Below are positions 27,677 to 54,189 of a stretch of DNA of 64,000 bases, piece after piece. Source of the DNA: Fistulifera solaris (lineage: Eukaryota; Bacillariophyta; Bacillariophyceae; Naviculales; Stauroneidaceae); the NCBI GenBank assembly GCA_030295235.1, contig AP026131.1, positions 1,426,001 through 1,490,000 of the forward strand, given 5' to 3'. The position numbers were made by a program, and so were the translations under genes. Position 1 is the stretch's first letter; the number at the start of each line of letters is the position of its first letter. The notes beneath the pieces are model-generated. The model did no database searches. It worked only from the letters and a program-made list of their open reading frames with translations, and was not told the DNA's origin.

Positions 27677-30600
27677 CTAGTAACTGCCCTGTGGCTGGAA
27701 CGTCGTTGCGGTGGACTCTTCACCCAGCATTGTAGAAAGCGCTTGGCTCACCAAAGGATCTGCCGCGTACATGCGAATCCGTTCACTGGTTGCCGGCATT
27801 CGCATTTCAAAATACTGTTGGTCGTTCAAATTGGATTTGCGCGCGGCAATCAAAGCATCCTTAATGGCGTAAAAGACCTGTGGAAGAAAGAAAATATGAA
27901 AAGTTTTAGCAAACGACGTGTCAAATCAACAAGCGATCAACCATCTTGAACTCACAGATGTTCCCAAAACAAATGGTGGTTCACCGACAGCTTTGCTGCT
28001 GTGAACTGCGAACGGATTATCAACATTCTCGAGAAGCGAAACATTGAAAATTTCTGGAACATCATTGAAGGCAGGTATCTTGTAGGTTCCGGGTCCGGCT
28101 GTAAAGACAGTGCCCCGAGGACCACACCACCTATGATCGTCGTCCGAGTAAATGACTTCTTCCATCGTACTCCAGCCCATTCCCTGAATAAATGCACCTT
28201 CAATCTGACCGATATCGATGGCTGGGTTGATACTAGATCCGACGTCCACCAGGACATCAGCGCGAAGCGTCTTATGGTTACCAGTTAGTAGGTCGAGTTC
28301 TACTTCCGCACAGGCAACGCCCTGCGTGAAGCTGTTAACAAACAGAAAACAATGTTAGATGACGAACTGTCAAGGAGAACAAGTATTCATGACTTGCTTC
28401 TACTTACTAGTTGAAGGGATGCCCTTTCCACGAGTTCTCGGGTGCATCGTCAGGAAAGTCCTCGGGCTTGTTTTTGGTCCAATCAAACCCACACCTACTA
28501 GTGTCAAGCGCGAAGAAACCATGAGCGGAAAGATCTATCCTTTCCATGTGAGCAGCCAAAGCAATTTCTTTGAGCGTTGCGTCAGGGCCAAGCTTATGCT
28601 GAATAGGTTTAATGCGAGCAATTATCTGGCGACAAGCGTCCAAGGTTGCCATTCCGTACATATCCGTCGACATGGACGCCGCGGTAGGAATAGCATTGGG
28701 AACTTTGTCACTGCTGCTATCATTCACATAAACATTCTCCAGCGGGATTCCAAAAGCTTGTGCCGCGACTTGACAGACCTTCGTGTGAAGACCTTGTCCC
28801 ATTTCCGTTCCTCCGTGACTCACTAAGACAGTACCGTCTGTATACAAGTGAACTAGCGCCCCTCCCTGGTTCATGAACTTCGCAGTAAACGCGATTCCGA
28901 ATTTCGTTGGCAGAACGGCAAGTCCTCGCTTGACCCATTTGTGCTTGGCATTGAAAGCGTCGATTTCCTTGCGACGTTCAACGACATTTTGATCCCTGTA
29001 TATACGATCCCACATGGATGGCACATTCCACTTTCCTGAAAATTGTTCTCCAATTATCATGCCGAAATGCATGTGATGACCAATTTGATAAAAGTTATCT
29101 TTGCGAATCTTGTCACCGGGCACCTTGCATGCTGTCGCAAGGTGGTCGATCACATGTTCAGCAACAACCTGTTGAAAAGCAATTCAAGTTTAGTTACGAA
29201 AGTGTAACGCTGCCATCTACGCCGAAACAGATCTTCTTACCATGCCTTGGGGACCCTAAACAATGAATAGCATTTGCAACATAGTGAGAAATGACATTGT
29301 GCAAGACGACCACAGCCGAAGGTCAACGTATTTACTACTTACTCCAAAGCCTCGAAACGCTGTGTGGGGAGGCTGAACGGTCTTGCAAGGTACACCCTCA
29401 ATCCTAAAGCGCGTTGTATGTGTGAGTGACGAAAAACAAGAATCAGCCATTGTATAGACAAAGTGTGATCGTACCTGAAATGGGGATAATAATAGCATCC
29501 GTCTACATGAAAAAGAGCTCGATCCATCACTGGACTGGATAAGTCCAAGCCTGACCCAGCATTGTTGAATAGTTTGGCATCGAAAGCAACAAGCTTTGCA
29601 CCATTTTCCGTAATTTCGGCACTGGCTGAGTAATAGGTAATAAAACAGTGACGAGTACCTGTCGTCTCTGTCGACAAAAAGTTTACAGCTAAGTGAGCGG
29701 TGTGAATAGCGCCATCTTTTTCAGTTTTGCACTTACTCATGTCAACGTCACGTCCTAGTGTCAAGCGTACAGGTCGATTGGATATCTTCGCAGCGACAGC
29801 CGCAGCGCAAGAAGCAAAGACGCTCCTCGTTTCCTTTCCTCCAAAGCCGCCACCCATTCGCTTCATACGTACTACGACTTTATTCGCTGGCGTGCCAGTT
29901 GCTGATGCAGCAAACATCTGTGTTTTATTGGTGGCTTGGGTGGAGCAATAAATCGTCAAGTCATTTTCGGAGGGGATGCACAAACTACAGTTAGTTTCCA
30001 AATAAAAATGCTCTTGGGCACCCGATTTGAAAACTCCCGAAACTTTAACAATGTCTCCGACCTTTGGTTCGCCCTTGGAAATCCTCTGTGGTGGCCAAAC
30101 TGTTAAGAACGCTTACGTCACCACGTTCAAGTCCGTGACGTCCAATTTCGTAGAAACTTCCCGCTTCAATCGCATCTTCAATAGAAACAATTATCTTTTT
30201 GGAACTAGCAGCACCGTACTCAATCTTACAACTACGGGCGCCCAATTCAGCACTTTCCAGAGTTTCCGCGACGACGATAGCGAGAACCTGCCCGACCATT
30301 CGAATCTCTTCACCCGGTGGAAGGAATACGGTTTCGTCCTTGACGACTGGGCCATACTCGTTCTTTCCGCCAAGTTTGATCAAGTCGTCGTAGCCATAGA
30401 CCGCTACAACGCCCGGTATCGAAAGTGCAGGAGCCGCATCCAAAGATTCAAATGTCACCCCGCATTGCTTCGCTTGGACCAGATACGCTTGTAAGGAACC
30501 GGGAGGGAGTGGGATATCATCAACGTACACGGCTTCTCCCGTGCAATGAAGAGGACCCGACATGTGTGTAGCTGCTTTTCCCACTTCGGCCGCCACTTTT

Positions 30601-32760
30601 GTCGATTCGCTATCCAGGTCCACCGAGGGCAAGCTTTTGTCTTCAAGACCACTGGCCACTTTCGGAGCAGGATACGTTTGAACTCCGTAAAACTGGGGCT
30701 TTGGTTTGCTCAAAAACGTCTTGGCACCACTCATTTCTTGATCATCTACAGCCGGGGCAGTTGGCAAGTCACCAACCAATGACAACAACGAAGGATCTTC
30801 CTTAATCTTTTGAATGTCTACCTGCAATTCCTCGACGCACTGCAAGTAAAATTTGTAAAGGAAAGACGCCGCAAGTGACATGCGAAACGCTGCTTGACCA
30901 CCGGGAACACTCGGTGGGAGCTTGAGCTCGTTCAGTAACGTCTCCCGTGCCACATCGAATGTCGCGGCACAGAATTCGGCACCAATTAAGACAGCAGCCG
31001 TTTGACTGGCCATGACGGTCGTCGGAGCCATACCTCCAAACGCCAATGCCGCGTCAGCAATTTTGTACGTTCCATCTTGCACCTGTAACTTGATGCGCAT
31101 CGATGCGGTGACAATACTAATATCATCTTCTCGACGACGCGCCTGCTTGAATGGCTTGTAATACTCCAAAACAGGAGCCACCAAAGGAATCTCGACACGC
31201 TCCACAATTTCATTGGATTTCAAATCGACGGTACGGTATTTGAGAAAGAACTCCGATACCCGAATCGTTCGACGCTGGATGCTTTCGTCACTGAGCGATG
31301 TCAATACGAGTGTGGCGCCACTCGCCGCCAACATCGGATTCATGTCGGAAATGGGACTCGCCGTGACCAAGTTTCCTCCCAAACAGGCAACATTGCGAAT
31401 TTGCGTGGAAGCAAACCACCGGAGCATGTCATGAATGGGCAGAGTCGTGCGCAACAAACGATCTTGTTGCGACCATTCGTGACATTTCTGTTGAATTGTA
31501 CTCAACGGACAACACGATCCAATCATCAAACAATTGTCAACGACTTCCATGCCGTAGATTTCTGTAATTCGATCCGAAGGACTCACCAAACGCGGATACA
31601 CGGCTTGCTTGAATTTCGTTTCAATGCCCACTTCGGTATTTCCCACCACAATTTTGCATCCACCTGCAAATTCTTTCAACAATGAAAGTAATTCCACGAA
31701 TGTCGTCGGCTTGAACCAGGTTCCGCCGGCTTGATATTCCGTCGTATCCACAACCATGAGAGATTGTGTCAATGCTTCCGATTCCTCTAGTAACTCTGCC
31801 GGAAACATTTGATTGGCTTGTTGACTCCAATCTTCCTTGTGTTTCATAAAGGTCTCTTGATACATTTGTTGTTTGTCTTTTGATGAGGAAGAACAGCACT
31901 GGTCGTTGACATTGCATTCCTGTTGACACGTGTCTCGTTCGGGACAGTCCCGACACGGCGTCCCACACGGTCCTTTCACAGCATCATCACACAACGACCG
32001 CGCTGCATCCCAAATGGGACGATATCCGGTACAGCGACACAAATTTCCATCCAAATGTTCTTCCAAATAGTCCGTGGAAGGATGATTCGTCAACAATGTA
32101 TAAATGCTCACAATGATCCCGGGTGTACAGAATCCACACTGCGATCCATGCAAATCGACCATGGCTTGTTGGACGGGATGCAATTGGGTGTGCACGGAAC
32201 CAATCCCTTCAATGGTGGTAATATGATATCCATCTGCGGCCAAAATGGGCATCAAACACGCATTGGCGGCCATGTGTCTATTAGAGTAGAAATAGATAAG
32301 GAGAGAGTGAAGAGAAGAAGGAGAATGCAAATGTGAGCCTATATCTTTCACTGCATTTCTTCTTTAAACGCACACACACAATCTTTTGTACGTACTGTAA
32401 CGTCCCGTTACTACTATTCTTCTTGGACAACATGACGGTACAAGCGCCACAGCCTCCTTCCGCACATCCCAATTTGGAACCTTTCAATTGCAACACGTCT
32501 CTCAAGAAGGAAAGCAGTGTTTGATTCGGACGCGCTTTTACAGCCTGTGCGAGAGGAACTTTCCGTCCATTGACAAACAGAAGAGGCGTCGTGCGGTATC
32601 CTACGAGTATAGAATAAATAAGTGAGTATAAAATTCTTTGTATACGCTGGCAACTCTTCTAGATTCTTTTCGTTCGTTCCTTCGTACCTTTCTTTTGATA
32701 CAAGGGAATGCGTGACACATCTTCATTTTCGTAATACAACGTGGTTTGATTGGGTGGCAT
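27677..32760 (-). CDS. XDH: Xanthine dehydrogenase/oxidase, multi-exon
   Basis: Start ATG 32758-32760, exon 1 to 32688; stop 27677-27679. Exon 2 begins at 32600. At least eight exons are needed. Domains in order: first [2Fe-2S] ([15 protein letters not shown]), second [2Fe-2S] ([19 protein letters not shown]), FAD domain ([16 protein letters not shown]), and the molybdenum-cofactor domain with [34 protein letters not shown] and [11 protein letters not shown] Cys-rich insert ([21 protein letters not shown]) follows the second Fe-S domain and is unusual. The enzyme oxidises hypoxanthine and xanthine to uric acid in purine breakdown. One intron is about 35 bp (near 30070-30105). One exon is only 15 nt (29241-29255). 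No frameshift was needed. It is divergent from the HMG-CoA synthase fusion. Confidence 0.92.
29241..29255 (-). other. XDH: 15-nt microexon of xanthine dehydrogenase
   Basis: Exon ggtccccaaggcatg (read on the minus strand) encodes Gly-Pro-Gln-Gly-Met. The upstream exon ends at 29343 with FRGFG and a GTAAGT donor; the microexon is bounded by TTTAG and GTAAGA; the next exon starts at 29168 with VVAEH after a CAG acceptor. Together they give the conserved molybdenum-site motif FRGFGGPQG. All joins are in phase 0. Confidence 0.9.
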
Positions 32761-33252: not shown

Positions 33253-36200
33253 ATGTCACACAACAACAACAATCCCCTCCATATTGGTATTCTCGGCCTC
33301 GAAGTTTACACGCCGCGGACCTACATACAACAAACCGAACTCGAACAGCATCTCCAAGTTCCGGCGGGGAAATTTACGATCGGCTTGGGACAAGAAGGTT
33401 TGGCCGTGACCGGCGATGTCGAAGATATTAATAGTATTTGTTTGACGGTCGTGCATCAATTGCTCGAAAAGTATGTACGGAGTACAATTGTTCTGATGTG
33501 TAAATGTCACTAAGTATTCACTCAACTCATTCAAACTCACTCTCTCGAATAGATACAACTTGGATCCACAGTCGATCGGACGTGTCGAAGTTGGTACCGA
33601 AACATTGATTGACAAATCGAAAAGCACCAAAACCGTCCTCATGGAATTGTTTCCCGACAACAGTGATATCGAAGGTGCGACCATTGTCAATGCGTGTTAT
33701 GGAGGAACGGCGGCGTTCTTGAATGCGTGTGCGTGGTGTTCACTGGACGAACGACTAGCGATTGTGGTGGCGGCCGATATTGCCACCTACGCGGCCGGAC
33801 CGGCGCGTCCGACGTGTGGCGTCGGGGCCGTCGCTGTCTTGGTCGGACGCGATGCGCCGTTGGTACTTGGTGAGAGAGCGACGCATGCGTCGCATGTGTG
33901 GGATTTTTATAAACCCAATCCTGTCAGTGAATATCCCGTCGTGGAAGGTGCCTTATCGCAACTGTGTTACTACCAAGCCCTGGAAGATTGTTACGCCAGA
34001 TGGTCGCAAAAGACAAACACGACGGCGACTACACCGGATTATTGGGTCTTTCATGCCCCCTACAACAAATTGGTGCAAAAATCCTACGCGCGATTGTTTT
34101 ATATTGATTCTTTAAAGCAAGATAATACGCCTCTTGAAAAATGGCGTGATATGGATCGCATACAATCGTATCATGACAAAGAATTAGAGGCGGCATTGAA
34201 ACAACACAGTGCCTCCGCGTATCAACAAAAATTGACCGATGCCAATCACGCGAGTCAACAAGTCGGAAATACGTATACGGCCTCAGTCTTTTGGGACTCT
34301 GTAGTTTGATCAGTCGTCGCTCGTTGGTGCCGGAACAGCAGATTGCCGTCTTTTCGTACGGTTCCGGGGCACTCGCGACCTTGTATTCCTTGCATGTGTA
34401 AGTATTGCTTGTTGCGGTGTGTGTTTGTGTCGTTCCAAATAATTTCGTGCTACTCATCCTAATCTCTTTTTTATTCGAAACAGCCGCACACCGACGCAAC
34501 AAACCGAATTCACGACGGAACGGATGCAGCAGGTATTACAACTGGAGACACGATTGTCGATGCGCGAACAAGTCGCCGCGCGCGAATTGGATTTGGCATT
34601 GGATACAAGGGCCAAGATGCATACGAGTGGCGTGCCCTATACACCTTTCTATCCGCACGATCGATTGTTTCCAGGAACGTATTATTTGACGCACATCGAT
34701 GCGCAATGGCGACGACATTACGCCCGAACACCCGTCGGGCCGATGACGCCGTGGGACGGTGTCGTGCGTCCACTCCAACCGGCTCCCTCGATTCGATCGT
34801 TTGCGGATGAAACTGATCTTTCGGCGTGCTATATTACTGGGACAGCGGCGGGTTTGCCTGGACAAGAACAAGTGTTTCGTGCCGACAATTTGGAGCGTTT
34901 ACTGAAAGGTGAAAATTGTATTTCGGCTGTTGATGTTAAAGTGCAACAATCCATGTTGGACAAGAATATCATTTTATTGAAAAGAATCCCGACCAGACGG
35001 CTCACAAGATACCCTTGACGGAGACAACCGATATGATTCAATTGGCGGCGCAGCTGGGGGCATTCGATTTGACGGAACGGTATGGGGTACCGAGTGGTTT
35101 GGCCAAAACTATGGATGTGGCGGCACAAGTCGCGGTTGCGGCTGGATTGGAAGCCTTGAAGAATGCTGGGCTGGTTTCGGGACGATCGAGCGATTCGTCC
35201 GAATGGAAATTGCCGGAAGCTTTGCAAGCCGATACCGGTGTCGTGTACGCGAGTTCCTTTCCGGCCATGGATGCGGCCATTGGAGAAGTCGTCCGATATT
35301 TTTCCTCTTCCACTCCAAAAGATAACCATCAACTCATTCAGGCACTCCGTCAGCGAATGTTGGATGTTCAGGGTACCTTGTCGTCAGAAGATGAAGATGC
35401 TTTGGCCCATTTGAAACAGCAAGCAGCAATGACGAATGGGCACAAAACAACCACCCGCTACGCGTTCGACCGTAAGTTCTTGTTTCGGGTCCTTGTGTTG
35501 GGAAATGCACAGTTGGCGCAACTTGCAGGTTGCAAAGGCCCCAACACGCAGACCAATGCAGCGTGCGCCGGAACAACACAGGCGATCAGTATGGCTCACG
35601 ATATGCTAGTAGCAGGACGGGCGGCACGCGTCGTCGTGATAGCGGGCGACAATGCGGCAGGACCGACGCTACTTCCTTGGCTGGGCAGTGGTTTCCGTGT
35701 ATTGGGCGCTGCGACCTGCAAATCCACAGTAGAAGAAGCGGCTCTTCCGTTCGATAAGCGGAGATCGGGTATGCTGTTGGGCGCAGGAGGCATTGGACTG
35801 GTTTTGGAGACGGCCCCAAGCATTCGATTGCGACAACTCAGCACTCTTCCCTGCGTACGATTGTTGGCAACTCAGTACAGCAACTCAGCATTTCACGGTG
35901 CGGCTTTGGATCGCCATCATATTGGCTCCGAACTGGTTCGCTTTCTCAACGATATCCAGAAGCGTTTTGGAATCACCAAGACGCAGATTGCTACGGAAGG
36001 TGTATACTTTTCTCACGAAACGTGCACGCACGCATCTGATGCATCGTCTTGTGCCGGAAATGAAGTTGCGGCATTGCGTCAAGCTTTTGGTGACGATTTA
36101 CCGAAGCTGTTGATTGTCAATACGAAAGGTTACACAGGCCATCCCATGGGCGTCTCATTTGAGGACGTCGCCGCAGTGGCGGTTCTGCATCATCAACAGG

Positions 36201-36349
36201 TCCCTGCTATGCCAAATTACCGTGTTCACGATGAATACCTGGGCGACCTAAATTTGTCAAAGGGCGGACCCTACAGCTGTAAGTTCGCCCTCCGCTTCGC
36301 TGCTGGATTCGGAAGTCAAGTGGCGTTTGCGCTTTATGCCAAAGTTTAA
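33253..36349 (+). CDS. HMG-CoA synthase fused to a beta-ketoacyl synthase domain, three exons
   Basis: Exons 33253-33470, 33553-34397 and 34484-36349, with GTATGT..TAG and GTAAGT..CAG introns. Residues about 1-450 are HMG-CoA synthase with all catalytic residues: Glu in VEVGTETLID, Cys in NACYGGTAA, His in FHAPYNKLVQKS. Residues about 460-976 are a ketoacyl synthase: CYITGTAAGLPG start, Cys in TNAACAGTTQA, His in THASDASS, and His in TKGYTGHPMG. The join is inside one uninterrupted stretch (34484-34978), so the fusion does not depend on frame repair. Two one-base losses break the frame: in the T run 34289-34292 and near 34979-34986. Known function of the first half: acetoacetyl-CoA + acetyl-CoA to HMG-CoA (mevalonate pathway). 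The second half would make a Claisen condensation. About 976 aa if repaired. Confidence 0.85.
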
Positions 36350-39504: not shown

Positions 39505-42500
39505 CTAAAAGGCACCCGCTTCCGCCATGTCCAAATCACCCGTCGACATGACATCGTAAATGCAAGATTCGCGCGTCTCTTCCGACCAGTCAGCGCAAGC
39601 CATCGCGGCATCTTCGAAGCTCACCAACGATTCCGACATGCGACGATTCATCAAGGCCAAAGGAGTGGGCATCTGGCACAACTGAGGATATTGCGGGCCT
39701 TCGACTTTCTGGAACAAGTTGCCGTCGGTGTCATGAACTTGCCAGCTCAATCCGAATTCATTGTGATCGGCGTGAACTTGACCGTTGCGTCCAATGAGAC
39801 TACCGTCCGTGAACGCACCCATAAGACCGACACTATCACCAAAGCCGTCACTGTGGGCGTTATCGACTTCGACGGCCAAGAACTCGTTGAAGACCTTGAT
39901 GACAATCACACCCATGTGTCCCAAATCAATCTCGAACTTGTGACGCTTGGTACCGAAGTGGGTCAAAGTCAGAGGGAATCCACCGACGGTGGCGGGCAAT
40001 TCGGCACCGGCAACACCGTTCAGGTAGTAGTAAGCACGAGTGCCGACTTCCAAAACATCATTGCCGATGCGAACCGCGGCATCCGAGATGAACGACCAGT
40101 CGTCACGGATCTTGGTGCGAATGTGCAAGTCGAGACCGGCTCCGTTGTGGAAGGTGGGAGTCTTGACCAACACCAAATCACAAGCACCGTGGAAATCGTA
40201 AACTTCTCCCATCCAAGTCTTCAAGTGAGGATCACCGTAACCACCGCCTGATTCGCCGTCGCCAATCGAGTTGGCCGTGGGGAAACCGACCGTAGGATCG
40301 TTATCAATCGTCGAGCCAGTGGGAGCAGCAACCGGGGTGGAGCTGACTTCGGTCGGCGATGCGACAGGTGTGTCTTCGGGAGTGCCTTCCGGAACGAGGC
40401 ATTCGGGGTAGTCCATGGAAGCACCGATGACCGTCGATGCGGTGTTGTTGAGCGAAATGCTGCCGGAGTAACCCCAGTCAGCGTGAATCTGAATGTTCTC
40501 TCCAGTGGCGCCCTCAGGGAGCTCGAAACAACCTTCCCATGTAATGACCTTGCCGTTGGGGTCGCGCGTGAGAGTGATTCCAGGAGCTAGGGGCTGAATG
40601 GCACTGTCCGAGCACGAGTAATCCTTGAACCAGGCCTCGGTGTTGCCAAGTTGAATTCCGGGAGCGGCTTGGACTTTGATGCACATCGCACCCGCCTTGC
40701 AATCGGCAAGGCAGTAAGCAGCGGCTGTTTCCACAAACTCAGGGGCTGTGGTGTCGTTCTTGCCGGCGTTGAAAATCTTGAAGCACTCCTTGTATTTCTC
40801 GGGTGTGGCAATGAGGTTGGAACTGGTAAAGTTGAGGACTGGTCGGACTTCGTTGCAATCCATGACACCATCTCCGTCCGAATCAATATCAAGCTCTTCG
40901 CATCCGCAAATTCCAGCATCAGTTTTGTCAGGGTTCAAAGGGCATTCGTCCTCACAGTCATAAACGCCGTCTCCGTCTGTGTCGACGTCGGTGGTCTTGG
41001 AGGGGTCCATGGGACATTTATCATTACAGTCAGGTGTTCCATCATTGTCCGAATCCGTGTCTTGAACATCGCATCCGCATACCCCAGGTTCGATCTTGTA
41101 AACGTCGTCAACACACAAATCATTGCAGTCAGGCGTTCCATCGCTGTCCGTATCCGTCTCCGGCTCGCCGCATCCGCATAGTCCTTCCTCTGTCGTCTTC
41201 TCGGGATCGTTGGGGCAAACATCATCGCAATCGAGAACTCCGTCCGAATCACTATCCACATCCGGCGAACCGCAACCGCATGTTCCTGGTTCTGTTTTGT
41301 CAGCGTCTTCAGGGCACTTGTCATTACAGTCGGGGACTCCGTCGTTGTCTTTATCATTATCCGGTGTGCCACATCCACACGCCCCAGGAGCGATCTTCGA
41401 AGGGTCGCTTGGACAATCATCATCACAATCAGGGGTTCCGTCGCTGTCAGAATCCGTGTCTGCTACGTTGCAACCACAGACGCCTAGATCGTTCTTTGTG
41501 GGATCATTGGGGCAGGAATCTTCATGGTCGCATTTTCCATCAGCGTCGGCGTCCGCATCAACCATGCCGCACCCACATTTGCCTGGGTCGGTCTTCTTGG
41601 GGTCCGCAGGGCACTTGTCGTTGCAATCAGCCGTTCCGTCATTGTCCGCGTCCACATCCGTCTTGCCACAGCCGCACTGCCCTGGGGTAATCTTTCCTTG
41701 ATCAACAGGGCACTTGTCGTTACAGTCAGGAACACCATCTCCATCTGAATCAACGTCTGATGTTCCACAGCCACATTCCCCTGGCGTAATCTTGTTGGGA
41801 TCGGCGGGGCATGTATCCAAACAGTCTGGCGTACCATCACCGTCCGTGTCCGTTTCCATTTGGCCACAACCGCACTTTTCTGGGCAGGTTTTTACAGGAT
41901 CGTTAGGGCACCTGTCCTGGCAATCCACTGTTCCATCACCGTCCGAGTCTTTTTCAGATTGACCGCATCCACAAATTCCTGGAACGATCTTGCTAGCATC
42001 TTGAGGACACTGATCAACGCAGTCAGGGGTTCCATCTTTGTCAGAATCGACATCCGAAAATCCACAGCCGCACACCCCTGGGGCGATCTTTTTAGGATCA
42101 TCAACGCAATCATCGTCGCAATCCATGGTGCCATCCTTGTCCGAATCCTTGTCTGGCTCTCCACAACCACACACCCCTGGAGCAACCTTGGTCTTGTCGA
42201 TGGGGCATGCATCTATGCAATCCGGTGTTCCGTCAAGGTCAGAATCTGTTTCACTCACACCGCAACCACACTTGCCCTTCTTGTTCTTGTTGGGATCCAA
42301 CGGGCACTGGTCGTTGGCATCACATGTTCCATCGTTGTCCGAATCTTGCTTGCCACATCCACAGAGGCCTGGCTCAATCTTCGTAGGATCATCTTGACAG
42401 GCGTCTTTGCAGTCAGGGGTTCCATCTTTGTCGCTATCAACATCACTGACTCCGCAACCGCACACGCCTGGTTTCGTCTTGAGAGGATCGCGCGGGCATT

Positions 42501-44078
42501 CGTCTTTGCAGTCGGCCGTTCCGTCCAAGTCCGAATCTCTGTCTGAAACACCGCATCCACAAATGCCAGGCGTAATTTTGAGGTTGTCCGAAGGACATCC
42601 ATCTTTGCAGTCAGGTGTTCCGTCCGTGTCTGAATCTCGATCCGGAACTCCACATCCGCACTGCCCGGGAGTAAGTTTGGTTCGATCTCGAGGGCATCCA
42701 TCCTTACAGTCAGGCGTTCCGTCGCCGTCCGAATCCACCTCTGAAGCTCCGCATCCGCAATGTCCTGCGCATGTTGTCTTGTTTCTATCGTTGGGGCATA
42801 CATCCAAACAGTCAGGCAAACCGTCACCGTCCGTATCCGTTTCCGGTCGGCCACAACCACAGCGTCCGGCACTTGTAGTCTTGAGGGGATCGTTGGGGCA
42901 GACATCAAAACAGTCCAAAGTTCCATCGCGATCCGTATCAATGTCTTGGCGTCCACAACCACATCTAGGACACGCTACCAACTGAGCAGCACATCCCGTT
43001 TGCAATTGAGCTTCGGTGGCAGCACAAGTGCAGCCCTTGAGACCGCTGGTAGTGGAAACGAATCGGTTGTTGGGGCAAACATCGCAAAAGTCGGGCACAC
43101 CGTCTCTGTCAGTGTCAATCTTGTCGTCGCCTCCAGCGCATCTGTCACATCCATCAGGGATGCCGTCTCTGTCGGCGTCCATTCTGTCATTGTGTCCAGG
43201 GCAACGGTCAACACAATCCGCAACACCATCACGGTCCGTATCTGTATCCGGGACTCCGCAACCGCACTGCCCTGGCTCCATCTTGTTGGGATCCAAAGGA
43301 CACTTGTCGTTGGGATGAACACCGCAGCATTCGCCTTTGGTCCAGTCACAGCACATTTTGCCATTCAACTTTGTGGAGCGGACGTAAGGGCACGCACGTT
43401 CCCAGTAGGACCAGTAAGCTTTCTCCTGGGACCAATTCCACGTCGGGTTTCTGGCCTTGACATCGTAGCGAGTGCCGTGGTCTCTGATCAAATAATCTTT
43501 CGTGTTAGGACCCCAGGGAGAATAATCGCTTCTCTTGCAGTCGACCAACACATCATGTTCACGCATGTGCCCTCCGCCAGTTCCTTTCGGACCGTACCAG
43601 GCGCTCGAATCAATGGTGATGCGCACCCATGGGTTGGTTGGCGAACAAGTGCGATGACAGATGGTCACACGACGAGAGCCGCATTTGCTGCTGCCATCTG
43701 GATCGGCAAGTCCATAACTGTCTTCTGGGTTGCAAATTCCTGTAAATATAGCGCCATCTGAGCCGTTGTCGTTGAGTTCCGAGCACACTAGCCCGGAAGC
43801 GCACGCCATGCCCTTGACACTTGTATACTTGTCGGCATTCGTGTTGTAAGTAACTTGACAAGATTGACCTTGAGTTCTCGCGGGAGCGCAACCGGAAAAG
43901 CTCTTTGTACTGGAATTTCGGAGAAAGCGCGGCGTCACCTGTGATGAAAAAGGAAAAGCACTGTCAGGATTCACGGTTCGCGTGCAAATGTTTTTTTTCA
44001 AAGGCTCGCACTTACCTGAGCATCTGCAACAGAGTTGAGGAGAGCCGCAGCGAACAGCAAATTGCTGATGAATTTCAT
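39505..44078 (-). CDS. Secreted protein with 25 Asp-rich Ca-binding-type repeats and a VWD-like C-terminus
   Basis: Two exons: 44078-44016, coding the signal peptide MKFISNLLFAAALLNSVADA, and 43938-39505; the intron has GTAAGT..CAG ends. Length 1,498 aa. A Cys-rich N-terminal region of about 210 residues is followed by 25 repeats of about 37 residues with the pattern DxDxDGxxDCxDxCPxDPxKxxPGxCGCG, like thrombospondin type-3/EF-hand-type calcium loops with added Cys pairs. A region of about 150 residues, a Pro/Ser/Thr linker, and a von Willebrand factor D-like domain (GYGDPHLKTWMGEVYDFHG, DSVGLMGAF) complete it. The function is probably extracellular, calcium-dependent adhesion or wall/matrix structure (inference). 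No frameshift in 4.4 kb. Confidence 0.9.
40840..43300 (-). repeat. Coding tandem repeat, about 111 bp per unit
   Basis: The 25 calcium-loop repeats of the large secreted protein. Most units are about 111 bp; the first few (near 43100-43250) are shorter and lack the CGCG tail. Confidence 0.85.
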
Positions 44079-44893
44079 TCTTTGCTTTGATATTGTTTAC
44101 TCAAAGAGAAAGGAAGAGGAAAACGAGGACAACGTTTTGTTGATTTCAAAAGTTGTGAGGCAAAGTCGGTTCTCCGTACAAAGTCATTGGGCACGAAAGG
44201 GAAGACGGGTAGTGAATACGGATGACCTGTCGGGCTTTGTTGATAAGGACTAGTCTTTTGTTTTCTTTATAGTTTCTCAGTCTTGCTCTTTATTATTCCA
44301 GCAACATTAGTATTATTTCGTCCCTTCCTGAATCACTAATCCTTGATCACTGATTAGTTTCATTGTGGAAAATGAAGTACATGCAAGATCTATGATAAAA
44401 CGATGGGTTCACTGTTTACGACTTTGTGTACGAAAACGATTTTTGGCACGATCGCTTCCATAAATATCTTGGGGTTTTACAGGCAACAAGTGACTCTCAG
44501 ACACGTGGAGTTACATGTACTATACAATTTTGTGATATCAAGGGAATAAGGGCCTTGAAGTGTTTTTTCGCCTCTACTACGCACTCGACACTCCACATTC
44601 AGCTGACTACTGCGGACAAATTTTGTCAGCTTTCGCTACATTGCACTATCGGGCTCATTTTTGTACGATCGCCTTGGGTATTCTAGTATTAGCTTTAATG
44701 TTGAGCATGTATCACGGCTGACGGCTGACGGCTGACTAAGACCTCGCAATTGCCAGCGAATTTTCAATCTTCTAAAGACCAGTTGTTACATAACGGAGAT
44801 ACCAGGTGGAGAATGGAGAAGAGTCAAGAGTCAAGTCACGCGCATCGCGGATCGTGATCGTAACGCGAAGACAAACAAATACTCTGGAAACGA
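44079..44893. other. Intergenic upstream of the Ca-repeat gene
   Basis: About 800 bp. Includes the presumed promoter of the minus-strand gene and a short direct repeat (ggctgac, 44717-44735). No convincing ORF. Confidence 0.4.
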
Positions 44894-46102: not shown

Positions 46103-49100
46103 CTAGAAAACCCCCAAAGCCGTCCGGGCACCTCCCTTTTCCAAGAGCTGAATGACGGCTCGTTTCTTGTCCTCTGACATTTCCACATCTTCTAAGGACT
46201 TCAGCAGTACGGCAACTTCTTTTTCTTTTTCTAAGTATTGAAACAAAATCTTCGCCAACTTTTCTTTGGGTAGTGACATAATGAAAGTCGTTCCTTCCTT
46301 GTACACCATTTTCGCGGCTAAAGCAGAGCTAATCGCATTTTTAATGTATTGCTTCGGGACTCTATCGTGCACTCGATCAAAGGCTAGATCAGCAATCGTC
46401 TTTGGTAAATGCATTTGAAACAGAGGCAAAAGAGCTTCCTGATCTGCTTCCGACAAAGAATCCAACGCAAGAGTCAGCGCATCGGTGGCCGCATTGATAC
46501 AGTTACTAATGACCTGAGAAATTTCGGGAAGCGAACCTCCGTGTGCCTCATATTCACGAAACAGAAGCTCCGCTTCCAGTTTGGCCAGCATGCGCAGCTT
46601 TTCCAACACTTCTTGCACAATTTGAGCCTTGTTGGCAACAAATTCTTCTTCCGACAACAGCATGGCAGCACAAATCTCGTACGACGATGTTATCACACCG
46701 CCCTTGTTGGCCGATGAATCTTTGACAATAACGACGCCGGCATCTTGAAAGAGCGAATTTCTGGCGTCTTTTGTGATGAAAAGATTGGCTCCTTCCACAA
46801 TGAGCGGTGCTGACGGACGTCCATCTGCCATAATAAAGTTCTTGTAATTGGAGCAATCAATCGTATTCGGACGTCCTCCGCATGGCAGGAATGCATCTGC
46901 TTGAAGTCGATTGTGCATCGTGTTGCGTGCTTTGGTTCCTTCAGGAGTGTCCGTTGTGTGCAATTTGCCCGACGGTCCGAGCTTAGTCGCGTCGAAATAG
47001 GAAATGCAAAGTGCCGAACTGACTAGTCGCAACAGCTCGTCGTGGTTCAGTCCATCCGGATCTTCTGCGCAACCGGAGTGGTCCGCAATGCCGACAATCT
47101 TAACATTTTCACCATATTCACGAACCAAAATTTTGATTTCATTGCCCGCAACATCTCCATCCGGACCGCCCGTCATCTTTACAGTGAAAGAGTTCTTTTC
47201 TGGATCGATTCCCAGCACGCGGCGAAGTGCGGTATCTAGATACACATTGACGCCTTCGCTTGTTACACCGAATTGTTTGTGATTGATCCCCGCCCTCGGC
47301 TTGCTGCTCATAAAAGCAGCTGGTGTGTTGTACCCTCGCTCCGAGGCTCGCTTCACAATCCATTCAATGTCCCCCGGAATGATCTGCTCGTCCGGACCCA
47401 AATAAAGAACTTCTGGTCGGCCTAAGCGATCAATAACAAACCTTTTGGTCTCCTCGGTTTCTACGATAAGATCCAAAATGGTATCAGTGAATGCTTTGAC
47501 CGATTTACGCATCACAAAGTATTTGCCAGAATCGTTCAATCCTGTTGTATTGATCAGCGCAACGGCTTTGGAACCTCCCTCGGGGCTGAGTTGGAAAAGC
47601 GTGGTTAGGATATTGCTACAACAATAAGTAAAAACTAGGATTTCGTACTTACATATCTTTGTTTTTTAGTTGTTGCGCAAATGCCAACCCATAGCATTCG
47701 TCGTATTGCCGAGCTGATTCCAGAGCATACAATTCCGTGTTGGCGGGTGTCACCAATCGCAGTCCTCCTCGACTGATATCACGGAATCGTACGTGAAAGC
47801 CGTTAAAACGACGACCGTGAACGAATAATACTCCAAACGGCAATTCAGCAGCATTTCCCGGTTCATGCATGACGGAAGGATCAAGCCGAAGACCCAATGC
47901 GTAACGATTTGGCATGTAGGCGTTCGTTTTTAGAGTGCGATCCACAATTTCAAGCATTTTGCTCAAAATCGAGGTAGCTACCTGATCCTCTACTTCCTTG
48001 GAAATCATTTGCGTCAGATCATCACGTCTACTTTGATACGATTCGCCACTCAAAGGATGATCCGGATGAAATCGATCGAGAAACAGGTCAGCAATCAATG
48101 CTGCATGGCCGATGTGTTGATGCACAACTTCGGCAATATTCGCTTTCGAATACGCCATCGTATTAATCTTGGTCAACACTGGATGGATCAAGGAGCACAT
48201 GGCCGTAATCACTTCTCCACGCGCAATTCCCAACCAAGGCTCTTTGCCAAACACCAAATCGACTGTATCCGGGTCCAACCATTTTGCGCGTTTAAGTTCT
48301 TGCGCCAATGTTTGCCAATCCGTCGTGGCATCGGCCGACAACAACGAGGTGGGGCTGATCAACGTCCGCAAAATCGTTACACTCCCGTTTTCACCATCCG
48401 GCACAATATCCAAACGTGCCCGCTGCACATCAAACTTGTGATGGTACAGCAACTGACACAGATTCTCCAATGCGACTTGCGGAATACTGTTCGCGACCGC
48501 CATTTCGACCCAATACAGCGGTCCACTCGTTGGTAAATGCATTTCGGGCGTTTGATCGGTCGCCAACCCAATGTGTACCGCCACTCCTTCGGTCCCCGAG
48601 ACTTCCGCAAACAACAACCGCTGCATACAAAATCGCGCCGGATTCATAAGACCAATTTGCACGTATGTCGGCCGACACATTTTCATGTATTCGACCAGCG
48701 ATTCTCTTTCCAATAAAGGCGACAACGGCAATTCTTCATCTACCACAATCCCCTGCTGCACATTGGCCGCATACTCTAAAATTGGTTCCGCCAAGGCCAT
48801 GACGTCCATGTCGACATCTTCATCGTGTACGGGTCGATGCCCGTACACAAACATATTCAAGCTCATCGTTTCATCCACGGTCGAAAAGACGTGCAATCGA
48901 CTGAGGGGCATTTCGAGACTGTACTTGTACGGCAATTCTTGCACCATGTGCAACAGCGTACCGGGAGCGGTGCCGGGACGAATGAACGTCAAGACGGTAC
49001 GACCATCGAGCGTATGCGATTTGAGATTGAGATAGAGGTCCATATTCGCATCCTTGACGGCCGCAATTGCTTTCATGTGATCCATGCGGTATCTTTCGGG

Positions 49101-49529
49101 GACTTGTTGAAAGTAGCTGCATAATAGTGAAGGGATTAAATGGTGAGATAGATGTCAAATATAGCGAATCTCACAGGAAAACAAAATACGTAACAAATAC
49201 ACTAGCAACATAATCTCACTCTCTTCACGCTCGTTACTTACACTGCCGGCATATTTTCAAGAAACCACGGTACGACCGATTCAATTGTTCGTGTTTGTTC
49301 ATGGATCAATTCATATATCATGGCTTTTTTGTGTGACACGTTGCACTTCGACGTTGTGAGAAGCTTGCCACGCTTTCTCGGGGGAAAGAGACGTTGGTGT
49401 TTCTCCTAAACTTCCGTATTGATGCGACATGCCCGGAATGCGGTACGTGTCATTCTTCGATGTGAAGACTCGACGTTGGTTTGTCACTAGACGACGTGAC
49501 GACGTCGTTAATTTCAACCACAATGTCAT
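46103..49529 (-). CDS. GDH2: NAD-specific glutamate dehydrogenase, large type, probably mitochondrial
   Basis: Exons 49529-49242, 49116-47653 and 47615-46103, with GTAAGT donors. Start ATG 49527-49529 is chosen because MTLWLKLTTSSRRLVTNQRR is a good mitochondrial presequence; an earlier start at 49583 is possible. Joined length is about 1,087 aa, matching the 115-kDa fungal/protist type. Motifs: KNKDI, LSPEGGSKAV, nucleotide-site VGIADHSGCAEDPDGLNHDEL, EGANLFITKDARNS and SSANKGGVITSSYE. An extra A in the run 49325-49330 shifts the frame in exon 1; dropping it joins QRVTQK to AMIYELIHEQ. The enzyme oxidatively deaminates glutamate to 2-oxoglutarate and ammonium with NAD, feeding the TCA cycle. 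Confidence 0.92.
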
Positions 49530-51795: not shown

Positions 51796-52311
51796 CGTGA
51801 TGAAACGTGTTTGTTGTAGCGTTGTTATTTTCGAAGGCTGTTGGGTCAAAGGTCCAAGCGAAGAAGTCATCAAATCATTGTTCATCGGAAGAGGGGGAAG
51901 ATACTGTATCTTTTGTTAGAGACTGAAGCACACGCAGAAGGGCGTCTGGCGTCTGACCGCATAGGCACGTCCCATTTCTTCAAAACCGCTCCGATTCGTT
52001 CATGTTCTTCATAATCCAGTACGATTTCTACATACGTGACGTCTCCGTAGGATGATGTAACCTTACCAGTTCCGCATGGCGCGCCTCCGAATTCGGAAAA
52101 TGGCGGAGCGCTTCGTTTTTCAAAGAACAAAAATCGCAACAATTCTGATTTCTCATTGTCACGAAAGGAAGGAATCACTTACTTTATGCTTCGCGTTGTC
52201 TTTCTCCCATTCTTTTTCATTGATAAGCTTTAACTGCAATTGAATTGACTGCAAAGTTCCTTCAAAAGCCCCTCTTTTGCCGTACCTACAAAAAAGAAAG
52301 AAGCTATCATC
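51796..52311. promoter_or_regulatory. Interval between divergent genes, possible small spliced gene on the minus strand
   Basis: Between the Cys-rich gene (minus) and the methyltransferase fusion (plus). On the minus strand, 52289-52184 reads as an exon-like stretch (YGKRGAFEGTLQ...KEWEKDNAKHK) bounded by TTTTTTGTAG and GTAAGT, and two further short exon-like pieces follow to about 52000. The starting exon would overlap the plus-strand gene, so I do not call it as a gene. Confidence 0.3.
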
Positions 52312-54189
52312 ATGACACGTTCGATGGTCGTTGTTTCGGATCATTTTCATTTCAGTCATTTTACCTGGAAGGCTTCCCCGCAGGATTCGGAAGAAGAGAC
52401 GACATCGACACCTTTGAAGTTGTCGTCTCCGCCACCGCAAGACATTAAATTGAAACTGTATTCGCGCATTCTTCATGATGACGAAAACAACATTCATTTC
52501 GGAAAATGGGATCGTGTTTCGCTGGAAGAGAAAGATGCGTATTCACAAGCGGCGCATCGCATGACTGACTATATGTACAACGATTTGGCCATACAACTGA
52601 TTCCGGAACATCGTCGTAATGCCAGCGACTTTCAATACATTGATTTGGGGAGCGGGACAGGAGCGAGTGCCTTGCGAATTGCTTCCCAATGTACGTTTCC
52701 GGGCAAGGTTGTGTGTTTGAATGTATGTCCGCAACAGAACCGCATTGCGCAACGCGCGGTCGCACAAGCCAACTTACAACAAACGATTCAAATTATGGAA
52801 GGCGATTTTGAGCAAATGCCGTTTGCCGAGAATGCCTTTGATGTGGCCTTTTCGCAAGATGCCTTCATTCATGCGCGCCGCAAACTGCAAGCCTTTCGAG
52901 AAGCCTTTCGTGTTGTCCGACCTGCGGGTGCCTTTGTCTTTTGCGATGTCATGGCGGGACCCATGACGACGGACGAACAAGTCGAACAACTCTCCAGAGA
53001 CAATGCCATTTCGAATTTGATGCGTCCGCACGAAACAGTCCAAGCGATGCAAGAAGCGGGTTGGAAGGACGTCCACTCGATCAATGTCACGAACGATATG
53101 CGGATTAGTTTTCAACTCATGCTACAAAAAGTGCACGCGAGCTTGGAGACGCATCAACAGGATCGCGATTTGTTAGAGTTGTACCGTCAGCAGATTCAGA
53201 CGCGCATTGATCAAATTGATCGTGGTATCATTCAGTGGTGTGTGTTTCACGGTCGCAAGCCCGTCGTACTGCAAATGTTGTGTCGACCGCCTTTTCCCTT
53301 GGTGAATACTTCGGAATTGATTGTGGTAAAAGAACAAGACAACGACCCGACGTCACAAGATCCGTCCATTGTGGTGGTGGACATTTTGACGCCCATGCCC
53401 CGCGCGAAAGTTGAAGCTTTGCCTTCTTCGGTGTCATTGTTGATTACCATGAGTGCCGGACTTGATCACATTGACATGGCAGCGTGTCACGAACGCAATA
53501 TTACAGTGCAACAGGCCGGTCGTCGCGCCATTACATCCCACGTCGCCCAATACGGATTGGCGTTGATTGTGTTGGGATTGCGGGATGCTTTGTCGCAACA
53601 ACAGGTTCCGTTTCCATCACAGGGATGGAATTTGACGTGGAATATTCCGGGAAAGCCTCTCGAGGAATCGAAGATTGCATTGATTGGTATGGGAACGATT
53701 GCGAAAGAATTGGTGCGTCAAATTCGTTGTTTGGCTCCCACCGCCGAAATTCTGTATCATGCCCGATCTCGTCATGAAACGGCGGAAGCCGAATATCATT
53801 TGCAATATTATGATGATTTGAAGGAAATGGCGTCCCATTGTGATATCTTAGTACCATTGTGTCCTTTGACCGATCAGACTCGCAATTTGATCAATGCCGA
53901 TGTGCTTTACCATTTACCGACGCACGCCGGATTGTTGAATCTGTCTCGCGGCGCCGTGGTCGATACGGAAGCTCTGACGCATGCTTTAGAAGCGAAGCAG
54001 TTTCGGTACGCCATTTTGGATACGACGGCTCCGGAACCTTTGCCGAAAGATCATCCCTTGTGGTCGTTGCCGAACTGTTTCATCTTTCCGCACTTTGCCA
54101 CCAACACTATGGCTGTTCGTCGTGCTTTGGTAGATGACATTCAGCCTTTAGTTGAAGAGTATTTTGGTCTGACATGCAGTGATGTGTGA
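52312..54189 (+). CDS. Fusion of a SAM-dependent methyltransferase and a D-2-hydroxyacid dehydrogenase
   Basis: One intact 625-aa ORF from ATG 52312. Residues about 60-270 form a class I methyltransferase: YIDLGSGTGASALRIA, VVCLNVCPQQNR, MEGDFEQMPF and DVAFSQDAFIHA, with most likeness to sarcosine/dimethylglycine-type methyltransferases. Residues about 340-620 form a D-isomer-specific 2-hydroxyacid dehydrogenase with the catalytic set: Arg in NLSRGAVVD, Glu in TAPEPLPKDHPLW and His in FPHFATNT. The dinucleotide loop is GMGTIA, and the strand after it ends YHARSR, with basic/Ser residues where NAD enzymes have Asp, which suggests NADPH. No targeting peptide is clear. The pairing suggests a methylated 2-hydroxyacid product; substrate unknown. 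Confidence 0.88.
   Translation: MTRSMVVVSDHFHFSHFTWKASPQDSEEETTSTPLKLSSPPPQDIKLKLYSRILHDDENNIHFGKWDRVSLEEKDAYSQAAHRMTDYMYNDLAIQLIPEHRRNASDFQYIDLGSGTGASALRIASQCTFPGKVVCLNVCPQQNRIAQRAVAQANLQQTIQIMEGDFEQMPFAENAFDVAFSQDAFIHARRKLQAFREAFRVVRPAGAFVFCDVMAGPMTTDEQVEQLSRDNAISNLMRPHETVQAMQEAGWKDVHSINVTNDMRISFQLMLQKVHASLETHQQDRDLLELYRQQIQTRIDQIDRGIIQWCVFHGRKPVVLQMLCRPPFPLVNTSELIVVKEQDNDPTSQDPSIVVVDILTPMPRAKVEALPSSVSLLITMSAGLDHIDMAACHERNITVQQAGRRAITSHVAQYGLALIVLGLRDALSQQQVPFPSQGWNLTWNIPGKPLEESKIALIGMGTIAKELVRQIRCLAPTAEILYHARSRHETAEAEYHLQYYDDLKEMASHCDILVPLCPLTDQTRNLINADVLYHLPTHAGLLNLSRGAVVDTEALTHALEAKQFRYAILDTTAPEPLPKDHPLWSLPNCFIFPHFATNTMAVRRALVDDIQPLVEEYFGLTCSDV

Follow-up and report, generated by a model that had tools for sequence, protein, structure and literature searches.

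Within a 64,000-nucleotide stretch of contig AP026131.1 from the diatom Fistulifera solaris (hereafter the window), a single gene encodes 3-hydroxy-3-methylglutaryl-CoA (HMG-CoA) synthase (HMGS) fused to a ketosynthase (KS), both with intact catalytic residues. Judging from sequence, we put the chances as evenly balanced that this protein is a bifunctional stramenopile HMGS, whose KS would make an acetoacetyl thioester from acetyl- and malonyl-CoA and feed it to the HMGS half. The HMGS-KS architecture itself is already known, as Table 2 of Morris et al. (2009) records multifunctional proteins with this domain pair in an oomycete, Phytophthora sojae, and two diatoms, Thalassiosira pseudonana and Phaeodactylum tricornutum (Ps128154, Tp260768, 16649); judged by the table entry, these proteins have the same two domains as the window protein (PMC2705460). 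That paper discusses, under those names, neither catalytic residues nor KS origin nor function, and nothing on the fusion was found in another (PMC9004409). Three features described below, i.e. a group-wide intact double active site, kinship of the KS with the KS2 domains of prokaryotic megasynthases, and a changed residue two positions after its catalytic cysteine (Cys+2), were not met in the literature searched, and no functional study of the fusion, nor any assay, structure or mutant of its KS half, was found there, most subscription journals lying outside the coverage.

The gene (33253-36349, forward strand) comprises three exons with GT..AG introns and encodes a protein of 976 residues. 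Its features are as follows:

33253..33470 (+): exon 1, N-terminal part of the HMGS half with the PF01154 match; the protein starts MSHNNNNPLHIGILGLEVYTP
33471..33552 (+): intron 1, GTATGT..AATAG
33553..34397 (+): exon 2, HMGS core including Glu89, Cys121 and His240
33599-33601 (+): catalytic Glu89 of HMGS, exon 2
33695-33697 (+): catalytic Cys121 of HMGS, exon 2
34052-34054 (+): catalytic His240 of HMGS, exon 2
34289..34292 (+): one-base frame break in a T run, HMGS half, from reading frames; probable assembly error
34398..34483 (+): intron 2, GTAAGT..AACAG
34484..36349 (+): exon 3, HMGS C-terminus, linker and entire KS; stop codon 36347-36349
34728..34826 (+): interdomain linker, 33 residues, inside the single open frame 34524-35018
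34827..36346 (+): KS half, with Cys716, Gly718, His866, Lys903 and His908
34980..34983 (+): one-base frame break in an A run, KS half, from reading frames; read through by the independent record P0002
35564-35566 (+): catalytic Cys716 of KS
35570-35572 (+): Gly718 of KS (Cys+2), from alignment with homologues
36014-36016 (+): catalytic His866 of KS
36125-36127 (+): catalytic Lys903 of KS
36140-36142 (+): catalytic His908 of KS

Since exon 1 starts MSHNNNNPLHIGILGLEVYTP, a targeting peptide has little room. Pfam detected HMG_CoA_synt_N (9.4e-63) and HMG_CoA_synt_C (5.2e-66) within residues 8-436 and ketoacyl-synt (PF00109; 3.4e-10) at residues 697-798, with HMGS and KS domains only and no carrier or tailoring domain in the fusion protein. 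The Glu-Cys-His and Cys-His-His sets on which the initial annotation had relied were both located, together with Lys903. Its claim of an uninterrupted reading frame stands for the junction between HMGS and KS, which lies in the open frame 34524-35018, but not for the gene overall, given the two one-base breaks.

By family, residues and the fold of a relative, the N-terminal half is taken to be the cell's mevalonate-pathway HMGS. It passed the NCBIfam model for eukaryotic HMGS (TIGR01833; 477.4 bits, cut-off 286.2), and a search of the assembly returned one HMGS gene, of mevalonate type. In an alignment of 121 rows (the window protein plus 120 listed homologues), the catalytic Glu, Cys and His were present in 117, 117 and 118 rows, respectively, the remainder being gaps. 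Human HMGCS1 and Brassica HMGS share the fold and the Glu-Cys-His set with the fusion's HMGS half at 44-46% identity, and the HMGS of a fused relative (P0008) was 46% identical to Brassica HMGS vs. 19-24% to PksG/CurD. Solved HMGS chains span ~450-460 residues, and HMGCS1 and Brassica HMGS are not known to carry a KS domain.

The KS half has a thiolase fold of the KAS I/II type together with the Cys-His-His set and the Lys, and its top sequence match in the PDB was FabF (E 1.8e-14). It scored far below the cut-offs of TIGR03150 (FabF, beta-ketoacyl-ACP synthase II; 102 vs. 493.75 bits) and of the fabH (KAS III) model (22.2 vs. 292.1 bits), and matched the ACP_syn_III Pfam model weakly over 34 residues (23.3 vs. 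cut-off 24). NphT7, the enzyme to which the initial annotation had likened it, is of the KAS III type; the fused KS differs in its FabF fold, and membership in that class was rejected on the fabH score. In the window protein PF02801 went undetected and the Pfam ketoacyl-synt score was low (40.4 bits); we regard the low score as a family trait because prokaryotic KS2 query proteins also score weakly in this domain. Given its fold and the conserved Cys-His-Lys-His, the KS half should be catalytically competent.

Searching with the whole fusion yielded 423 matches from 7991 scored candidates, 120 of which were listed; PF01154 and PF00109 co-occurred in 116 of these, PF01154 being missing from the other four (P0002, P0021, P0063 and P0111). 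A second search, with eleven non-diatom fusions as queries (292 matches, 120 listed, ~8000 candidates scored), likewise found both domains in 116 of the 120 listed, PF00109 being absent from one unnamed row, two mosquitoes and one plant; this search overlooked fused rows known from the first (e.g. P0103). A further protein search gave 530 matches (120 listed, ~8000 candidates scored). All fused listed rows with an organism name are stramenopiles (diatoms, Triparma, Phaeothamnion, brown algae and oomycetes; six names or taxids were looked up, the others placed by their usual classification). No named non-stramenopile carried the fusion among the listed matches, the unnamed rows, which form the majority, being unplaceable. 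With the same pair of domains recurring in most listed homologues, the fusion is not a chance local event. Eleven of the 120 listed homologues came from transcriptome sets (six from the mmetsp source, five with MMETSP ids via eukprot), each with both domains; several species therefore have transcripts in which a single frame carries the fusion.

Conservation extends to both active sites. The KS Cys and first His occurred in 121/121 rows, the Lys in 115 (one Thr in P0104, adjoining an alignment gap, and five gaps), and the second His in 115 (six gaps). Of the 120 homologues, 110 had all seven catalytic residues; the remaining ten are incomplete sequences gapped at some positions. Across 18 representatives, conservation was slightly higher for the KS half (0.565) than for HMGS (0.539), with KS ahead in 110 of 153 pairs. 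The linker ranged from 22 to 206 residues.

The fused KS belongs, by sequence, with KS2 domains of prokaryotic type I fatty acid synthase/polyketide synthase (PKS)-like megasynthases. A prokaryotic genome scan produced at least 572 confirmed stretches, 80 of which were kept, so nearer kin may exist; the kept stretches derived from Heimdallarchaeota, Myxococcota, Acidobacteriota, Chloroflexota, Actinomycetota, marine archaea and others. Prokaryotic KS2 and fused KS were 36-44% identical (best segment, ~460 query residues) and shared the motifs NTKG[FY]TGH and GFGS as well as Cys-His-Lys-His; in the 78 of 80 loci with KS2 aligned over more than 400 residues, Cys, Lys, both His and GFGS were invariably present (78/78). 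Sixty-seven of the 80 predicted KS2-bearing frames had a KS1 upstream within the same frame, the usual order being (ER-)KS1-AT-(ACP-)KS2-ACP-KR-DH(-PPT), although locus ends truncated many of the frames; KS2 stood alone in two (L032 and L048). Prokaryotic KS2 is hence internal to an ACP-containing protein (up to 3599 residues in L026), whereas the fused KS tails HMGS and, with HMGS and KS domains alone detected in the fusion, is not embedded after KS1-AT and before ACP. Three KS2 proteins were compared with the Pfam and NCBIfam models; PfaA was their best NCBIfam match, above its cut-off in one of the three. BLAST with the diatom HMGS (1e-4) revealed no HMGS gene beside KS2 among the predicted frames of the 80 loci, so an operon that might have preceded the fusion did not come to light there.

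A quick tree built from 21 fused KS, 78 KS2 and three KS1 placed the fused KS in one clade (SH-aLRT 100), from which we infer that the KS was probably captured once, in a stramenopile ancestor. Within this clade, four named oomycetes and one further row grouped together (support 96), as did fifteen rows including diatoms and a brown alga (support 87). As the bolidophyte and diatom relative Triparma (P0109) sat on a long branch outside the other ochrophyte rows, branching inside the fused clade does not wholly follow the species. The clade emerged at an open fork beside groups of Heimdallarchaeota, Myxococcota/Pseudomonadota and Chloroflexota/Acidobacteriota, and the top KS identities (Heimdallarchaeota and Myxococcota, among the 80 kept of at least 572) do not point to one donor. 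Irrespective of the fusion, the scan also uncovered a widespread KS2 domain in (ER-)KS-AT-KS2-ACP-KR-DH(-PPT) megasynthases (L026-L105), including those of Heimdallarchaeota and Thermoplasmatota. The KS2 of one contig labelled Klebsiella pneumoniae (L063, a metagenome-assembled genome) groups with Myxococcota and proteobacterial metagenome-assembled genomes; this label, on a contig that carries a megasynthase, is probably wrong.

Fused KS and KS2 diverge at Cys+2, which was Gly in all 121 fused rows and in none of the 78 KS2 (Ser in 72, Thr in four, Ala in two). In the canonical KS of this diatom the position is occupied by Ala, Ser or Thr, and KAS III enzymes also carry Gly, as does the window HMGS half (Cys-Tyr-Gly). 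Speculatively, Gly at Cys+2 may have adapted a KS that relied on a carrier to the use of CoA esters.

In the bifunctional HMGS proposed here, the KS Cys would load acetyl, and decarboxylation of malonyl-CoA, or of a malonyl carrier, would yield an acetoacetyl thioester, which the HMGS half would condense with a second acetyl-CoA. The result would be an effectively irreversible entry into the mevalonate pathway that depends on malonyl-CoA, beside or replacing thiolase. The more elaborate version for diatoms, oomycetes and other stramenopiles, to which we assign somewhat less than an even chance, is that a captured megasynthase-type KS, retuned to CoA esters by Gly at Cys+2, supplies acetoacetyl-CoA to the fused HMGS, so that sterol synthesis would be linked to acetyl-CoA carboxylase and would depend less on thiolase. 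A physical coupling of an acetoacetyl-CoA maker to HMGS exists in the archaeal thiolase/HMG-CoA synthase/DUF35 complex, whose acetoacetyl-CoA maker is a thiolase, with a distinct protein as scaffold, and which is not known to include a fused KS. The reaction proposed for the fused KS is that of NphT7 from Streptomyces sp. CL190, which converts acetyl-CoA and malonyl-CoA to acetoacetyl-CoA and has been coupled to the mevalonate pathway (PMC5432608). With reported energetics of about +7 kcal/mol for thiolase and about -0.9 kcal/mol for NphT7 (PMC5432608), the malonyl-CoA route is energetically favoured.

Using both PF00108 and PF02803, three pairs of thiolases were found in the assembly, one member of each being compared by sequence with solved structures. 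The first pair is ACAA2-like, scoring 498 bits against human mitochondrial 3-ketoacyl-CoA thiolase and 347 against the next best structure; the second is of the peroxisomal/KAT type; and the third, on a 294-residue C-terminal frame, resembles the beta subunit of the trifunctional enzyme (285 bits vs. at most 131 for acetyltransferases); none of the three best fits the biosynthetic ACAT/ERG10 type. A strong argument from missing thiolase is weakened, however, by the ACAA2-type gene, as both copies (C42/C43) seem to lack a presequence, barring an upstream exon.

That gene is among several points that weigh against an acetoacetyl-CoA-making KS. An ACAA2-type thiolase could make cytosolic acetoacetyl-CoA, and acetyl-CoA C-acetyltransferases are annotated in Phytophthora infestans and Saprolegnia parasitica (PMC5289490); because of both, the KS may add to thiolase instead of replacing it. 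Furthermore, the KS2 kin sit in ACP-containing megasynthases, and Gly at Cys+2 is a correlation only. Structural support for channelling is lacking too, since the model of the relative P0008 (pTM 0.55) does not predict the relative placement of HMGS and KS; its pLDDT falls below 50 at residues 485-507, in the interdomain linker region.

Some of these points would fit a KS that is active on another job, for example condensing some other acyl group, CoA- or carrier-bound, for a lipid or decarboxylating malonyl-CoA, and located with HMGS for regulation or a shared acetyl/malonyl supply. Its kin are lipid- or polyketide-type megasynthase domains, and a thiolase able to supply HMGS is present. Yet named species ranging from oomycetes to diatoms have the KS fused to HMGS, which suggests a role linked to HMGS, and no carrier or tailoring domain was detected in the protein; we hold this alternative to be unlikely, though a serious one. 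Still more doubtful is the possibility that the KS half has lost its condensing activity in practice and persists in a structural or regulatory role, as a dimer element or malonyl-CoA sensor. The low Pfam score and undetected PF02801 would be in keeping with such decay, but the former recurs in the prokaryotic KS2 query proteins, conservation of KS at least matches that of HMGS, and its catalytic residues persist (Cys and first His in 121/121 rows; Lys in 115/116 and second His in 115/115 where a residue is present).

The initial annotation had also entertained a polyketide beta-branching tool, since such cassettes combine HMGS-like and KS enzymes. The KS of these cassettes usually lacks the active Cys, which is kept here throughout; the HMGS half exceeds the TIGR01833 cut-off as the sole, mevalonate-type HMGS found in the assembly, and the fusion is present in oomycetes whose mevalonate pathway is annotated. 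PF00109 retrieved at least three canonical KS pairs in addition to the fusion gene, with 12 of 12 candidates scored and no further KS of the PKS type found among them, and on these grounds beta-branching was rejected as very improbable. That the fusion is no real one, with annotation or assembly joining two genes or two transcripts being made, is scarcely credible: the assembly has two frame breaks, but the junction is open, both domains recur in listed homologues including the transcriptome-derived ones, and P0002 independently spans the HMGS C-terminus and KS.

P0002 matched the window protein in 607 of 608 residues, its frame being continuous across the second break (~34980), and the sole mismatch is the X inserted in the window translation at that break. 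Both breaks are best read as assembly errors, an independent record being at hand for the second only, because two other window genes look broken likewise. These are a glutamate dehydrogenase split across overlapping frames on the reverse strand (46106-47665 and 47652-49154) and a xanthine dehydrogenase region, also reverse, with overlapping frames 29342-30112 and 30048-32363, of which only the larger was domain-scanned. The assembly (51.7 Mb, 61 contigs) has paired contigs, e.g. the window's own contig C9 and C10, on which the two copies of a neighbouring channel gene are 93% identical in protein, suggesting an allodiploid genome. A second HMGS-KS copy was not found in a search of the assembly; C10 stops just past its homoeologue of the neighbouring xanthine dehydrogenase (1386707-1388766, where the matches contain stops), so that the second copy is probably unassembled beyond the contig end. 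P0021, 92% identical, may be this homoeologous copy.

Elsewhere in the window, a 646-codon open frame (52249-54186, forward strand) combines an N-terminal methyltransferase (PF08241) with a C-terminal D-2-hydroxyacid dehydrogenase (PF02826), a possible fusion. A 1531-codon open frame on the reverse strand (39508-44100) is high in G+C and without a Pfam match at 1e-5, the opposite strand there also having long open frames.

HMG-CoA is formed at the second step of the route leading to sterols and further isoprenoids. If the fused KS makes acetoacetyl-CoA, the textbook thiolase entry to the mevalonate pathway would be wrong or incomplete for a large group of eukaryotes, diatoms, brown algae and oomycetes among them, and their isoprenoid supply would be responsive to malonyl-CoA; terpenoid engineering would gain a ready, irreversible acetoacetyl-CoA/HMG-CoA module. 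Even with another role for the KS, stramenopiles from oomycetes to diatoms would have retained an intact catalytic domain on a core enzyme.
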